Source of the DNA: a virus
Strand: one strand, 5' to 3'
IMG/VR virus record: IMGVR_UViG_3300043449_001374
Span: 1 to 41,068 of that record
DNA length: 41,068 nucleotides
The position numbers were made by a program, and so were the translations under genes. The notes below the pieces were generated by a model. It ran no database searches. It saw nothing but the letters and a program-made list of their open reading frames with translations, and had not been told where the DNA came from. Positions within the stretch are counted from its first letter, which is position 1. The number at the start of each line of letters is the position of its first letter. Positions 19,772-26,042 of this stretch are shown piece by piece.

Positions 19772-20263
19772 ATGAGCGATGCCGATCAACATGCGCTTAC
19801 CGCCAGCGAAGCCGCCGCATTGGTGATCTACGACCAAGCCACTGGCAAGTTCTACCTCCGGAGCGATGGACGTGAGGTCGGCTTTGTGGTGGCTGCGAAG
19901 GGGTACGTCTGCCTGAAGCTTGCGGGCAAGAAGTACAACGCTCACCGTGTCGCATGGTTGCTTGCAACAGGACACTGGCCCGTCGGTGAGATTGACCATA
20001 TCAACCAGGTCAAGACGGACAACAGGCTGATGAACCTGAGGGATGTCCCTCGCGTCGTCAATGCACAGAACCAGACGCGCGCCCACAAGCGGAATGGGAC
20101 GGGGCTTCTCGGTGTGCACTACGACAAGGATCGTGATCTCTTCATCGCCGCGATCTTCTCCGGGGGCAGGAAGCGGTTCCTTGGTAGGCACAAAACGGCA
20201 GAGGCCGCGCACGCGGCCTACGTCTCGGCCAAGAGGCGGATTCACGAAGGGTGCACCATCTGA
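19772..20263 (+). CDS. HNH homing endonuclease with C-terminal AP2-like domain
   Basis: 163 residues. HNH core AHRVAWLLATGHWPVGEIDH plus NQVKTDNRLMNLRDVPRVVN (about 56-95) is of the phage AP2-HNH type, and the C-terminal part (GTGLLGVHYDKDRDLFIAAI; RKRFLGRHKTAEAAHAAY) is an AP2/ERF-like DNA-binding domain. It is inserted between large terminase and portal; its TGA overlaps the portal's ATG. GC content is visibly lower than in the flanking genes. It has no obvious ribosome site but lies 7 bases after motif copy 1. Confidence 0.9.
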   Translation: MSDADQHALTASEAAALVIYDQATGKFYLRSDGREVGFVVAAKGYVCLKLAGKKYNAHRVAWLLATGHWPVGEIDHINQVKTDNRLMNLRDVPRVVNAQNQTRAHKRNGTGLLGVHYDKDRDLFIAAIFSGGRKRFLGRHKTAEAAHAAYVSAKRRIHEGCTI

Positions 20264-21722: not shown

Positions 21723-22220
21723 TTGAAGACAGAACTCACCGCGCAGCGACTGCGCGAACTCTTCCACTATGACCCGGAGACGGGAGTCTTTACGCGTCTG
21801 GCGACAAGGCGGACAGACCGGGTTGGTGCAAGAGCGGCGACGAGGCACTCAAACGGCTACATCCGGTTCACTGTGGATGCTCGGCATCAGTACGCGCACC
21901 GGCTTGCATGGCTCTATGTACACGGTCGCTGGCCTTCCGGGGACATCGACCACATCAACCACGACAAGCGCGACAACCGGATCGCCAATCTCCGAGATGT
22001 TTCACGCTCCGTGAATGCTCAGAATCAGATTGCCGCAAGGAGCAACAACCGGACATCCGGAGTGCTGGGGGTTTCCTGGAACAAGTCGGCTGGAAAGTGG
22101 GGGGCCTCCATTCAGGTGGAGTCCAGGCTCAGGCACCTCGGCCTCTTCTCCTCAGTCGATGAGGCCCGCGCGGCGTACCTGACCGCAAAGCGTGCGCTCC
22201 ATCCCGGCTGCCCATTGTGA
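21723..22220 (+). CDS. HNH homing endonuclease with C-terminal AP2-like domain
   Basis: 165 residues with a TTG start (21723) six bases after AAGGGG. HNH core YAHRLAWLYVHGRWPSGDID and NHDKRDNRIANLRDVSRSVN, then an AP2-like domain (SGVLGVSWNKSAGKWGASIQ; LFSSVDEARAAYLTAKRALH). Same architecture as the gene at 19772, but the sequences differ enough to be independent arrivals or an old duplication. Inserted between portal and MuF genes; its stop overlaps the MuF GTG start (GTGA). Confidence 0.9.
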   Translation: MKTELTAQRLRELFHYDPETGVFTRLATRRTDRVGARAATRHSNGYIRFTVDARHQYAHRLAWLYVHGRWPSGDIDHINHDKRDNRIANLRDVSRSVNAQNQIAARSNNRTSGVLGVSWNKSAGKWGASIQVESRLRHLGLFSSVDEARAAYLTAKRALHPGCPL

Positions 22221-23950
22221 AGCCGCCGCGCAGCCCGATCCTTCCCGGCCGGCCGACTGACCGCACCGGTACCGGCGCCATCGTGCGCCGGGCGCTGGCT
22301 GCGATCGACAGGCGCTTCTCCGGGCTCCTCCGCGCCGCCCTGGCCATCTTCGACCGCATCCCGGTCTACAGCCTGAACCTGGACCTTGAGCCGCGTGTGC
22401 GTTACGGCCTGACGGCAGAGCAGATGGCCAGCGTGTCAGAGGAACTCGCCCAGGCCATCCAGCGCGCGCTCGATGGAGACCGGGAGCTCGGGCACGTCCT
22501 GTGGTGGGAGCCGTTTGTGGAGGACGCCGCCCAGCTCGGCGCCGCGCAGTCGTTCGCCAACCTGTCGGCGTTGTCTGAGGCCTACGCCGCCGCGCGGAGC
22601 CTGGAGGCGATCTACTTCTCCGAGCCCTACCGGCTGCGTGTGGCCACGGCCAAGTTCCGCGGGGTGGAGTACTGGACCGGCCTGTCATCCGAGCTTCGGC
22701 GAGACCTCGCCACGGTGATCGGACAGGCCATCGCAGACGGCACCAACCCGAAGGCGGCGCGCCGGCTCATCGCCGAGCGGCTGGAGGTGGGCAAGAGCAG
22801 GGCGGCGCTCTACGCCCAGACGGACATCACCAACGTGCTGCGCGAGGCGCGGATGGCCGAGGCAGACGACGCCCGCGAGCGCCTGGGCATTCGCTCCGGC
22901 CTGCTGTGGGCCAGCGCTTTCCTGCCGACCACGCGGCCGCACCACGCCGCGCGCCACGGGCGGGCGTACAGCACAGAGGAGGTGAAGGCCTTCTACGCGG
23001 AGCGCGGGAACCGCTTCCGGTGCTTCCTACCCGGCACTCTTGTCGCTGGTCGCTTCGTCGCTGGCGTCAAGTCGCGTTACAAGGGGGCGGCCATGTGTCT
23101 CGTGACTGCTGGTGGCCGCCAGCTTTCCGTGACCGCGAATCACCCCGTGCTGACCGCCCGCGGGATGGTGCCGGCGGCAGAACTCCGCAAAGGCGATCAG
23201 CTGGTCGCATACCGGGCCAATGTGCAATCGCCCCTTGGGGTACGCGACTTGTATGGTGGCCTGATGGGCGCCGCTGTCGAGGATGTATTCGGTGCGCTTG
23301 TGGAGGCGGGCCATCAATCGACGGCCAGGGTGAGCCCTGTAGACCTCCACGGCGACGCGGCTTTCGTTGAGCCAGATGTCGACGTTGTACAGACCGATCA
23401 GGAACTGGTGTTCGCATTGGATACCGCGGCGGCGCAGCTCCTCGATCAGCTCCAGTTCGTACTTCCCGACGCGTCGGCTTCTGCTCGCGGCGATCTTGAG
23501 GCGCTCTTCGATGGTCTGCGTTCTCGTGCGCGCGGTGGCATTGGCCGAGGAAGCGTTGGCGCGCCGTTCTTCGGGGCTCATCTTCCCCATGCGATTTCGC
23601 TGAGCATCGCTCCTGTCGCGCAGTTGGACACCGGAGGCACCGAACAGGCGACGGAGGGCCGATCGGCTGATCCCGTGCTGTTGGCTGATGGCCAGCATGG
23701 ATTGCCCATTGGTGTAGAGCTCGATGAGGTGGTGGAGGTTGTGCGGTTTGAGTATGCGGGCCATGTGTTCGATCTCCAGGAGCGAAGTGGCCTGATGCTA
23801 GGAAGCAATATCGTGGTGTCTAACTGCCACTGTTCCATCACCGAGGTGCTGCTGGACGAGAAGGGCCGTCCCATCCTGACCGACCGAGCGAAGAAGTCGC
23901 TGGCCGGCGAGCTGGCCGCCTGGCGCAAGGCGCAGAAGGGCGCTCCATAG
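22217..23950 (+). CDS. MuF-like head morphogenesis protein interrupted by an in-frame intein
   Basis: GTG start, 577 residues: N-extein 1-268, intein 269-536, C-extein 537-577, giving a 309-residue mature protein. The exteins are a phage Mu F / SPP1 gp7 minor head protein: ALYAQTDITNVLREARMAEA, then RTRPHH-like PTTRPHHAARHGRAY, and the conserved RFRC-HC box, which the intein splits before the first Cys. MuF proteins sit inside the capsid near the portal and aid head assembly or DNA ejection. An antisense nuclease gene lies inside the intein. The stop TAG falls within motif copy 3. Confidence 0.88.
   Translation: MKPPRSPILPGRPTDRTGTGAIVRRALAAIDRRFSGLLRAALAIFDRIPVYSLNLDLEPRVRYGLTAEQMASVSEELAQAIQRALDGDRELGHVLWWEPFVEDAAQLGAAQSFANLSALSEAYAAARSLEAIYFSEPYRLRVATAKFRGVEYWTGLSSELRRDLATVIGQAIADGTNPKAARRLIAERLEVGKSRAALYAQTDITNVLREARMAEADDARERLGIRSGLLWASAFLPTTRPHHAARHGRAYSTEEVKAFYAERGNRFRCFLPGTLVAGRFVAGVKSRYKGAAMCLVTAGGRQLSVTANHPVLTARGMVPAAELRKGDQLVAYRANVQSPLGVRDLYGGLMGAAVEDVFGALVEAGHQSTARVSPVDLHGDAAFVEPDVDVVQTDQELVFALDTAAAQLLDQLQFVLPDASASARGDLEALFDGLRSRARGGIGRGSVGAPFFGAHLPHAISLSIAPVAQLDTGGTEQATEGRSADPVLLADGQHGLPIGVELDEVVEVVRFEYAGHVFDLQERSGLMLGSNIVVSNCHCSITEVLLDEKGRPILTDRAKKSLAGELAAWRKAQKGAP
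23027..23764 (-). CDS. Antisense homing endonuclease nested within the intein: HTH plus Vsr/EDxHD-like nuclease
   Basis: 245 residues. N terminus: an HTH (LIELYTNGQSMLAISQQHGI, SRSALRRLF). Next is a NUMOD-like basic stretch (MSPEERRANASSANATART). Then comes a Vsr-like nuclease fold: YELELIEELRRRGIQCEHQF, IGLYNVDIWLNESRVAVEV, RLHKRTEYILDSGAHQATI. The C terminus (HGVIRGHGKLAATSS) lies opposite intein blocks A-B. GGAG precedes the ATG by nine bases. The frame is codon-aligned with the intein; its TAG stop is the complement of a CTA leucine at intein position 3. It is wholly inside the intein, so cutting an intein-free MuF allele would copy both. Family likeness is from memory. Confidence 0.75.
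   Translation of the reverse strand: MARILKPHNLHHLIELYTNGQSMLAISQQHGISRSALRRLFGASGVQLRDRSDAQRNRMGKMSPEERRANASSANATARTRTQTIEERLKIAASRSRRVGKYELELIEELRRRGIQCEHQFLIGLYNVDIWLNESRVAVEVYRAHPGRRLMARLHKRTEYILDSGAHQATIQVAYPKGRLHIGPVCDQLIAFAEFCRRHHPAGGQHGVIRGHGKLAATSSHETHGRPLVTRLDASDEATSDKSAG
23795..23805 (-). promoter_or_regulatory. CTYCNTAGCAT motif, inverted copy
   Basis: CTTCCTAGCAT on the minus strand, inside the intein's C-terminal coding sequence and 30 bases upstream of the antisense endonuclease's ATG. It is the only copy on this strand and it faces the only minus-strand homing gene of the late region. Confidence 0.5.
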
Positions 23951-24099: not shown

Positions 24100-24138
24100 G
24101 GGGCCGGTAGCCGCAGGGCGCCGGCCCCTTTTCTTCTT
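24100..24138 (+). terminator. Second rho-independent terminator
   Basis: GGGGCCGG (24100-24107), 13-base loop, CCGGCCCC (24121-24128), then TTTTCTTCTT. Perfect 8-base GC stem with a T-tract. The T-tract ends at the stop codon of the convergent membrane-protein gene. Confidence 0.65.
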
Positions 24139-24682
24139 AGCGGGCTTCCCGCTGCGCCTTGACGCATGCCGGTTGCTCATTCGCAAGGCCGGTCGCAAAT
24201 GAGTACCCGAGCACTCCGACGGCGGCGAGTCCGGTAACGGTCGTGACCACGAGGGTAGCGAACCAGGAAGCCTTATCCCAATACGAAACGCTGTCGTGGG
24301 CAGATGCCAGTTTCTCAAGCGCCGCCACGTACGTCTCTCGGCTGCTTGATGTGCTCGGTGCTGTGAGGATGCGCGTCTGTTTGAGTATGCGCATATGGAC
24401 GATGACCATCTTCGATACCTCAAAGAGCACGAAGACCGTCAAGGACGCCAACGCAAGGAGCGCAGCGGCTAGCGTCTGCTTATGAGTCAGGTAATCCTTG
24501 CTGAGCTGCCAGAGACCAAAGAACCCAGCGTAACCCGCAAGGATGAGCATGTTCGTGTAGGCCGTTGCCTTATCAAAGGCTACGGTCAACAGTTTCAGTT
24601 GAGCTTCAGCGACCTTGGCGGCCCGCCGCTCATCTTCTTCCGCGCGTGCTCTTCTGATCAGCTCATGCACGTTCTCTTGCAT
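24137..24682 (-). CDS. Three-helix membrane protein, inserted cargo (moron-like) gene
   Basis: 181 residues from ATG 24682, with GGAGG five bases upstream. A charged N-terminal helix (HELIRRARAEEDERRAAKVA) precedes three hydrophobic segments: about 44-61 (MLILAGYAGFFGLW), 70-93 (TLAAALLALASLTVFVLFEV) and 145-170 (ASWFATLVVTTVTGLAAVGV). It is the only complete non-homing gene on the minus strand in the late region, is less GC-rich than its surroundings, and faces two terminators. This is the signature of a separately expressed cargo gene, possibly exclusion or defence related. Family unknown. Confidence 0.72.
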   Translation of the reverse strand: MQENVHELIRRARAEEDERRAAKVAEAQLKLLTVAFDKATAYTNMLILAGYAGFFGLWQLSKDYLTHKQTLAAALLALASLTVFVLFEVSKMVIVHMRILKQTRILTAPSTSSSRETYVAALEKLASAHDSVSYWDKASWFATLVVTTVTGLAAVGVLGYSFATGLANEQPACVKAQREAR

Positions 24683-24727
24683 CGTCGCCTCCCTGTTAGA
24701 CAACCAAGAATAGTCCACTCGGGCGAC

Positions 24728-24738
24728 CTTCCTAGCAT
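24728..24738 (+). promoter_or_regulatory. CTYCNTAGCAT motif, copy 5
   Basis: CTTCCTAGCAT ending 8 bases before the ATG of the DUF2213 gene. Because two terminators precede it, something in this gap must restart rightward transcription, so this copy is the best promoter candidate. Confidence 0.55.
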
Positions 24739-24746
24739 GCCGCGGC

Positions 24747-26042
24747 ATGAAGCGAACCCGAGTCCACATCCTCTCTGCCGTCAACGCCTCGGCGGTCACC
24801 AAAGACGGCGGCACGTTCACCATCAGCGGCGTGTGCGGCGCGGTGGACGAGATCGTCATGAATGGCGTGCTGTACCCGGGCCAGGAGCTCGCGGACGGCG
24901 TGGCCACCATGGAAGGCAAGCCCGCCCCGGCCGGCCATCCGAAGAACGCGAAGGGCCAGCACATCAGCGCGCTGAACGGCGAGGCCCTGGCCTCCGCCTG
25001 GATCGGCAGCTACTGCCGCAACGCCCGGCACGAGGGCGGCCGCACGCTGGTCGACGTCGTGGTGAACGAGGCCCAGGCCAAGGCCCACCCGGACGGTGCC
25101 AAGCTGGTGGAGCGCCTGGAGGCGGCCGTCAACGGCACCCAGACCGACCCGATCCACGTCAGCACCGGTCTGCTGTGCCGGATGCTGGAGGTCAACGGCG
25201 AGTCGCGCGGGAAGAAGTACAGCCGCGTCGCCACCGGAATCCAGTACGACCACCTGGCCATCCTGCTGAACCAGCGCGGTGCCGGCACGCCTGAGGACGG
25301 CGTGGGCATGTTCCTGAACTCCGAGGGAACCGAGGAGCCGGTGGAGGTGGCCAACCTCGACGCCGAGCCGGCCGACGCGCGCGAACGCAACCGGCTGACC
25401 GCCTGGATCAAGCGTCTGCTGGGCAATTCCGAGCTCAGCTTCTCCGACATCTCCACGCAGTTGCAGAAGGGCCTGCCCGACGGCTGCTGGCTGATGGAGG
25501 TCTACGACCGCTACGCCGTCTGGTGCGGCCGCGACAACCGGCTCTGGCGCCAGGACTACGAGACCGTCGAAGGTGCCTCCGTAGCATGGGCCGGAAGCCC
25601 GATCGAGGTGGCTCGGCGGGTGAGCTACGAACCCGTCACCAACCTGCAAGAAGAGGAACCTGACGCCGTGAAGGAACACATCGTCGCCGCGCTCAACGCC
25701 GCCGGCATCAAGACGGAGGGGCTCGACGACGCTCAGCTCCTCTCCGCGTACAACGCCCTGGTCAACAAGCCGATCGCCGATCAGCTGGCCGCGGTGAACA
25801 GCAAGCTCGCCGAACGCGAGGCCGCTGAGCGCGCCGCCGAAGAGGCCGAGGTCTCGAAGCTGGCCGAGCAGCTGGCCGTGAACTCCTCGCTCACCGTGGA
25901 CGACCTCAAGAAGCTGGGCGCCGCCCGGCTGCGCGAACTGTCGGCCAAGGCGGCGCCCGTGGTGCCCGGCCAGGCCGGCTCGGCGCAGAGCCAGTTCACC
26001 GGCTACTCCATCAACGCCCTGATCGACAAGAAGGAGGCCTGA
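24747..26042 (+). CDS. DUF2213-like prohead protease/scaffold protein
   Basis: 431 residues from ATG 24747. The first 190 or so match the DUF2213 plan found between portal and capsid genes (GGTFTISGVCGAVDEIVMNG; AGHPKNAKGQHISALNGEAL; DPIHVSTGLLCRMLEV; YDHLAILLNQRGAGTPEDGV), which probably acts as a head-maturation protease. A middle DUF2213-unrelated stretch (230-305) is followed by a helical, Glu/Ala-rich C terminus (VNSKLAEREAAERAAEEAEV) like a scaffold. A GTG at 25668 could start a separate scaffold product. No normal ribosome site precedes ATG 24747. Confidence 0.75.
   Translation: MKRTRVHILSAVNASAVTKDGGTFTISGVCGAVDEIVMNGVLYPGQELADGVATMEGKPAPAGHPKNAKGQHISALNGEALASAWIGSYCRNARHEGGRTLVDVVVNEAQAKAHPDGAKLVERLEAAVNGTQTDPIHVSTGLLCRMLEVNGESRGKKYSRVATGIQYDHLAILLNQRGAGTPEDGVGMFLNSEGTEEPVEVANLDAEPADARERNRLTAWIKRLLGNSELSFSDISTQLQKGLPDGCWLMEVYDRYAVWCGRDNRLWRQDYETVEGASVAWAGSPIEVARRVSYEPVTNLQEEEPDAVKEHIVAALNAAGIKTEGLDDAQLLSAYNALVNKPIADQLAAVNSKLAEREAAERAAEEAEVSKLAEQLAVNSSLTVDDLKKLGAARLRELSAKAAPVVPGQAGSAQSQFTGYSINALIDKKEA
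25577..25587 (+). promoter_or_regulatory. CTYCNTAGCAT motif, copy 6
   Basis: CTCCGTAGCAT inside the DUF2213 gene, 80 bases upstream of the possible internal scaffold start GTG 25668. Confidence 0.4.

Follow-up and report, generated by a model that had tools for sequence, protein, structure and literature searches.

A phage MuF intein with a putative homing endonuclease gene on its opposite strand

We conclude with high confidence that the MuF gene described here contains a mobile phage intein whose two parts are read independently, its homing endonuclease gene being on the opposite strand; expression of that gene, DNA cleavage and protein splicing are inferred. The window analyzed is the complete stretch of 41,068 nucleotides (IMG/VR record IMGVR_UViG_3300043449_001374). 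As far as sequence evidence can decide, we regard it as settled that the antisense open reading frame is a real, selected nuclease gene. That this nuclease serves homing is very likely, with cleavage, expression and splicing again being inferred.

In the proposed mechanism, the MuF precursor would be translated through the intein, after which blocks A, B, F and G would excise it and join the exteins. In place of an in-frame endonuclease, the minus strand would supply a separate complete gene with its own Shine-Dalgarno site and start codon. The product, a helix-turn-helix (HTH) protein with a nuclease domain of the Vsr/EDxHD type, would cleave the conserved site of MuF alleles that lack an intein, and repair of the break would copy the intein and short flanks into the empty allele.

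The intein and the gene on its opposite strand

The host gene was identified by a match of the joined exteins to Phage_Mu_F (PF04233; E 9.8e-10, compared with 7.1e-7 when the intein is left in), and removal of the intein raised the score from 30.4 to 39.6 bits. The insertion point in the window lies before a conserved CHC motif, and MuF genes that lack an intein can be aligned across it without a break. The intein carries Cys1, block B (TANHPVL), block F (GHVFDLQ) and a terminal VVSN followed by C, so that the features of a HINT intein are present, i.e., a nucleophile at position 1, a TxxH motif in block B, and blocks F and G ending in Asn before Cys, Ser or Thr. Residues C1, T38, N40, H41 and N268 are invariant in an alignment of 48 inteins. 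The Pfam family Intein_splicing was found on the sense strand with an E value of 6e-5, a match that falls short of the curated cut-off. Motif and domain searches revealed no endonuclease on the intein's own strand in the window. All features that a prior sequence-only reading had ascribed to this element, a 268-residue MuF intein with blocks A, B, F and G and without a nuclease in its own frame, were recovered.

The same reading had placed a 245-codon antisense frame (23764-23027) inside the intein, codon-aligned with the sense frame, preceded by a Shine-Dalgarno site and ending opposite a Leu codon at intein position 3. The frame was found exactly as described. It lies wholly within the intein, with sense codon position 1 facing antisense position 3; its TAG stop pairs with the CTA codon that specifies Leu at intein position 3, and the sequence GGAG is present at 23777-23774. 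The coordinates of these features are collected in Table 1.

Table 1. Features of the MuF locus, the intein and the antisense gene (positions in the window).
Feature	Position	Strand	Basis
MuF-like minor head protein gene, intein-interrupted	22217-23950	+	Pfam Phage_Mu_F PF04233
Intein, 268 codons, Cys1 to Asn268, between ...GNRFR and CHCSITEV	23021-23824	+	Splicing motifs; boundary shared in relatives
Intein block B (TANHPVL)	23132-23152	+	T38, N40, H41 and P42 invariant in 48 aligned inteins
Antisense homing endonuclease gene (cleavage inferred), 245 codons plus stop	23027-23764	-	Relatives, selection, model, fold matches
ATG start of putative nuclease, complement of the block F His248 codon CAT	23762-23764	-	Start-type codon in 50/58 representatives
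Putative Shine-Dalgarno GGAG of nuclease, complement of block F Leu-Gln codons	23774-23777	-	Enrichment of Shine-Dalgarno 4-mers
Helix-turn-helix, antisense residues 10-43	23636-23737	-	HTH_58 E 5.6e-4, below Pfam cut-off; helices H10-18, H23-30, H34-43
Helical basic connector, antisense residues 51-100	23465-23614	-	Secondary structure of model; conserved A74, R79, A92, and R49 just ahead
Vsr/EDxHD-type nuclease core, antisense residues 101-198, with E103, N127, D129, E140, H145, R157	23171-23464	-	Conservation, fold matches
C-terminal tail of nuclease, residues 199-245, antisense across intein blocks A and B	23030-23170	-	pLDDT 53-60 after residue 230; sense constraint dominates
Doubly constrained region: antisense VAVEV (137-141), with invariant Glu140, opposite sense DLHGD (108-112)	23342-23356	both	Synonymous codon choice restricted for both proteins

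The His codon of block F is CAT, which reads as ATG on the other strand, in 43 of 49 representatives, as compared to 33% CAT in their exteins (binomial P 3e-15), and the remaining six use CAC, giving an antisense GTG. The Leu codon of the same block is CTC in 35/52 cases versus 26%. A strong Shine-Dalgarno 4-mer is found in 32/50 representatives against a background of 5.5%, an excess that results from the combined choice of CAT for His and CTC for Leu in block F. Judged from these codon counts, the start and the putative Shine-Dalgarno site of the nuclease gene are fixed via synonymous codons of block F. A single promoter-like match was found on the minus strand (23822-23795); it is weak, and 0.3 such matches are expected by chance. 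An open reading frame directly behind MuF on the minus strand (24137-24964) is a possible origin of a transcript entering the antisense gene.

Two free-standing endonuclease genes with HNH_3 and AP2 domains lie on the plus strand at 19772-20263 and 21723-22220, one on either side of the portal gene. When the intein nuclease is counted in, about 4 kb of the head module holds three nucleases of the homing type.

Domains and fold of the antisense protein

An AlphaFold2 model of the antisense protein, built with an alignment of 48 members comprising the window and viral-contig rows, had a mean pLDDT of 91; in it, an HTH is followed by a helical connector and a nuclease core of the alpha/beta type. 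The top six PDB matches obtained with Foldseek include Vsr (1vsr and 1cw0; probability 1.00), the homing endonuclease I-Bth0305I (3r3p; probability 0.97-0.99) and the endonuclease-like structure 3hrl, for which the TM score was 0.79 by target length. The E values were modest (7e-3 for the best match to 4e-2), with probabilities of 0.97-1 for the homologous top matches. Family profiles also matched 3hrl, with E 8e-7 when alignment A2 was used and 8e-6 with alignment A1, and 3r3p with E 2.4e-4 using A1 but not below E=1 using A2. A phmmer search of the PDB with only the antisense protein of the window gave no match, i.e., a family profile was required. At the domain level, Pfam MTES_1575 was found in 11/14 members at E<=0.1, and NUMOD1 in 2/14 (best E 0.012).

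The catalytic residues of EDxHD enzymes are E, D, H and D. Among 48 sequences of the antisense family, N127, D129, E140 and R157 are invariant and E103 is conserved in over 90%, and all five are intact in the window. The histidine of the catalytic motif is not invariant (H145 in 20/58), and D163 occurs in 29/58. By predicted fold the nuclease is of the Vsr/EDxHD kind, with the EDxHD residues partly confirmed. The number of HTH modules differs between members, with one in the window and more in L002, L006, L007, L008 and L114. The C-terminal tail is probably not catalytic. The HTH and Vsr/EDxHD-like core that had been read from the letters alone are thus borne out by model and homology; of the 'NUMOD-like' basic region, a basic helical connector was modeled, and the NUMOD label itself has weak support.

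The sense reading of the same DNA gives a different picture. The AlphaFold model of the intein was good in blocks A, B, F and G and in residues 81-147, and pLDDT dropped below 50 in residues 167-228, which lie opposite the HTH. According to the model, the sense translation of most of the nuclease gene appears to be an unstructured linker.

Selection on the two strands

A single open frame in the window is no evidence for a gene, since the codon usage of this gene gives a chance of 0.22 for an open antisense frame of 245 codons in such GC-rich DNA. This agrees with the caution, already voiced in the sequence-only reading, that open antisense frames by themselves are common in GC-rich DNA. The family gives much stronger evidence. 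Over 58 divergent members, the log10 P values for open antisense frames sum to about -108 when members are treated as independent, which they are not. For two low-GC members, L062 (37% GC) and Vibrio H2 (45% GC), the probabilities were 2e-10 and 3e-9, respectively. In 87 distinct sequences with an identical intein boundary, the sense frame is open in all 87 and the antisense frame is open in all except L079, where a stop occurs after 35 codons. Besides this nonsense copy, L102 and L116, which lack the HTH, are degenerate. All full-length embedded copies examined combine a sense and an antisense frame in register 0.

The aligned register can encode any protein while keeping the host frame open, because only TTA and CTA (Leu) and TCA (Ser) are barred and all have synonyms. 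In the 58 embedded nuclease genes, none of the 2212 Leu and Ser codons (1156 Leu, 1056 Ser) is TTA, CTA or TCA, whereas 248 would be expected from extein usage. A free-standing relative in Acinetobacter phage IME285 (L098) has 12 of these codons, which provides a natural control for the constraint that coding on two strands imposes.

Substitutions were counted in 21 disjoint pairs of relatives. In the N-exteins, changes that alter only the antisense protein outnumber those that alter only the sense protein by 1153:93, and in the linker the ratio is reversed to 116:385. Expressed as only-sense to only-antisense changes, the values are 93:1153 for the N-extein, 125:61 for the nuclease core and 260:55 for the HTH part, with Fisher P values relative to the N-extein of 3e-72 and 4e-157 for the core and HTH part, respectively. 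Substitutions per codon at sense positions 1, 2 and 3 were 0.119, 0.083 and 0.322 in the N-exteins, 0.134, 0.043 and 0.092 in the core, and 0.264, 0.112 and 0.157 in the HTH part. Compared with its own relatives, the window showed only-sense to only-antisense ratios in the HTH part of 24:4 (L001), 17:3 (L002) and 18:3 (L027). Intein blocks A/B and F/G lean towards selection on the sense strand.

A column-wise test with 58 representatives, in which sense constraint means that codon choice is restricted given the antisense residue, located the two kinds of selection. Sense constraint was found in 1/80 columns of the HTH part, 19/78 of the core and 34/55 of block A/B; for antisense constraint the numbers were 60/80, 52/78 and 28/55. 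The DNA is therefore dual-purpose in the nuclease core and not everywhere, and from these alignments only the core looks constrained on both strands. The overlap is tightest where antisense VAVEV, with Glu140, faces sense D-F/L-H-G-D, and both readings are nearly fixed. The proposal that each base serves both splicing and cutting was too strong, as the HTH half is under antisense constraint only and blocks A/B mostly under sense constraint. Related inteins, examined for constraint in both strands as had been suggested, carry hardly any stops on the minus strand, and this strand is under purifying selection. Neither of the conditions named in the sequence-only reading as refuting it, a lack of nuclease homologues or a minus strand with frequent stops and no purifying selection, was therefore fulfilled.

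The sense linker is not wholly passive; that idea was rejected because residues 87-93 and 108-113 show sense constraint. These correspond to the conserved linker motifs IEDVF..L (23279-23299) and DFHGDG (23342-23359), which persist even in copies with a degenerate nuclease (L079, L116).

Distribution, mobility and related systems

With the antisense protein of the window as query, tblastn identified 66 phage records, and the core from Gordonia phage Malisha identified 122. Further relatives were found in 163 viral contig stretches of IMG/VR and at 16 loci in bacterial genomes, including Chloroflexi, Actinobacteria, Firmicutes, Rhizobium and Rubellimicrobium, with others in sampled genomes. Nearly all full-length relatives sit in inteins, most of them at one MuF site. 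Other locations are an intein at a second MuF site (L128), an intein of a phage metallopeptidase (L132; PF18894, E 2.7e-11) and inteins of a lysin-like protein (L134 and L137, assigned by eye only, without a Pfam match), in each of which the relative is antisense. The L132 intein splits a predicted zinc-site motif (DHIL/CH), and since it interrupts this motif, the metallopeptidase is presumably inactive until splicing. The free-standing relative of phage IME285 (L098, 455-1348) is convergent with, and overlaps the end of, an intein-less MuF gene. It has no long open frame opposite, and no antisense remnant of intein block B was seen when looked for in L098. Possible interpretations are an ancestor, an escaped copy or a homing endonuclease gene acting in collaboration. 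The short stand-alone nucleases of the DUF559 type, which are distantly related, have no comparable overlapping frame in this register.

Taken together, these data make it probable that there is a widespread class of inteins with an aligned-register antisense endonuclease gene, present in phages of several bacterial phyla and inserted in MuF (at two sites), a metallopeptidase and a lysin-like gene, in which, within the nuclease core, the catalytic strand VAVEV and the conserved intein motif DFHGDG are two readings of the same base pairs with selection on both proteins. Annotation in public records of the Jerseyvirus type is inconsistent (L009 1411-2220, L101, H66 and H117). In the PK2 record the antisense frame figures as a 'hypothetical protein', the Snoke record annotates the intein and not the antisense gene, and in some Jerseyvirus-type records MuF is named 'NAD+--asparagine ADP-ribosyltransferase'.

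Jerseyvirus MuF proteins with and without the intein share up to 97% identity, with Shelanagig carrying the empty form. At 100-400 bp to the left of the site, Salmonella phage UPWr_S5 (L012) matches the empty allele with 98% identity, but within 100 bp the identity is 61%. These adjacent 100 bp are 95% identical to those of the intein-bearing E. coli phage GZMU_E2010 (L014), of which the intein is 97% identical to that of UPWr_S5 and MuF further out only 73%. This flank pattern is the trace expected of co-conversion during homing, and ordinary homologous recombination could also yield such flanks. In Pseudomonas prophage-like contigs, the exteins diverge far more than the inteins. The element thus shows a feature of homing elements, in that close relatives carry either an occupied or an empty allele and flanks were co-transferred, and the degenerate copies L079, L102 and L116 agree with a decay phase in the homing cycle.

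We weighed three other explanations. That the antisense frame is merely a shadow of GC-rich sense codon usage, with its nuclease likeness due to chance, can draw on the unremarkable probability of about 0.22 for the window alone and on a linker that is conserved in parts on its own. This explanation is barely credible: the linker substitutions reveal selection on the antisense strand, which we count as already refuting it, AT-rich members keep the frame open, start and Shine-Dalgarno site are fixed by codon choice, and the confident antisense model has its counterpart in sense residues 167-228 of very low pLDDT. Moreover, both the free-standing relative and the distant DUF559-like stand-alone nucleases do without a long open opposite frame of this register. 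A formerly active nuclease that is now kept only because splicing needs the sense linker residues is also very improbable. Linker residues 87-93 and 108-113 are indeed partly constrained and confidently modeled, and the copies without HTH (L102, L116) retain that part, but constraint in the HTH part is antisense by 60 to 1 of 80 columns, from which it follows that the nuclease gene is maintained in most lineages, and the window preserves E103, N127, D129, E140 and R157.

A real and conserved nuclease with a role other than intein homing, e.g., in phage competition or exclusion with the intein as a safe harbour, is unlikely, if less so than the previous two. The position of the free-standing L098 gene just behind an intein-less MuF would suit such a role, as would the frequent action of phage homing endonucleases between co-infecting phages. 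Against it stand the confinement of nearly all full-length relatives to inteins, mostly at one MuF site, and the close relatives with empty alleles among which intein and flanks were transferred. The two readings overlap, since cleavage of the empty MuF site would serve both functions, and homing remains the preferred function of the antisense nuclease.

In ordinary inteins with nested homing endonucleases, such as the VMA inteins, the endonuclease domain is in frame and is made as part of the host protein (PMC8966425). The MuF intein resembles these in having its endonuclease between splicing blocks B and F, in an insertion hidden by splicing, which for MuF is inferred, and in the coexistence of empty and occupied alleles; it differs in that the endonuclease is an opposite-strand gene with its own start. 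The EDxHD homing endonuclease I-Bth0305I originates from a group I intron (PMC3943268). The MuF nuclease shares with I-Bth0305I and Vsr a Vsr-like core behind helical DNA-binding modules, as indicated by fold matches, and a phage habitat, whereas its family is antisense in inteins rather than derived from a group I intron and its EDxHD residues are only partly confirmed. The homing endonuclease genes I-DsqI and Dir.S956-2 lie antisense in group I introns of nuclear rDNA, and their independent expression has been shown (PMC9548176). These are likewise encoded opposite to their host element, with expression of the MuF nuclease being inferred, but they reside in an RNA intron of a non-protein gene, with no overlapping frame to be kept open, whereas the MuF intein needs both strands open. 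The DUF559/MTES_1575 stand-alone nucleases, distant relatives of the nuclease core, are short, ordinary single-strand genes that lack an HTH and an intein. A literature search, with subscription papers mostly outside its scope, found no antisense endonuclease within an intein, so priority is uncertain.

The element occurs in well-studied phages of Salmonella, E. coli, Pseudomonas and Gordonia, usually with only the sense strand annotated, and for this reason the mechanism is directly testable. Natural controls are at hand in the free-standing relative, the empty alleles and the degenerate copies. Annotation pipelines should keep antisense open reading frames inside inteins rather than drop them. 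The MuF intein offers a clear case of natural protein coding on both strands, in one register and with selection measurable for each strand. Beside mini-inteins and inteins with in-frame nested endonucleases, it would represent a third build of mobile intein, in which a reversed endonuclease gene carries its own control signals.
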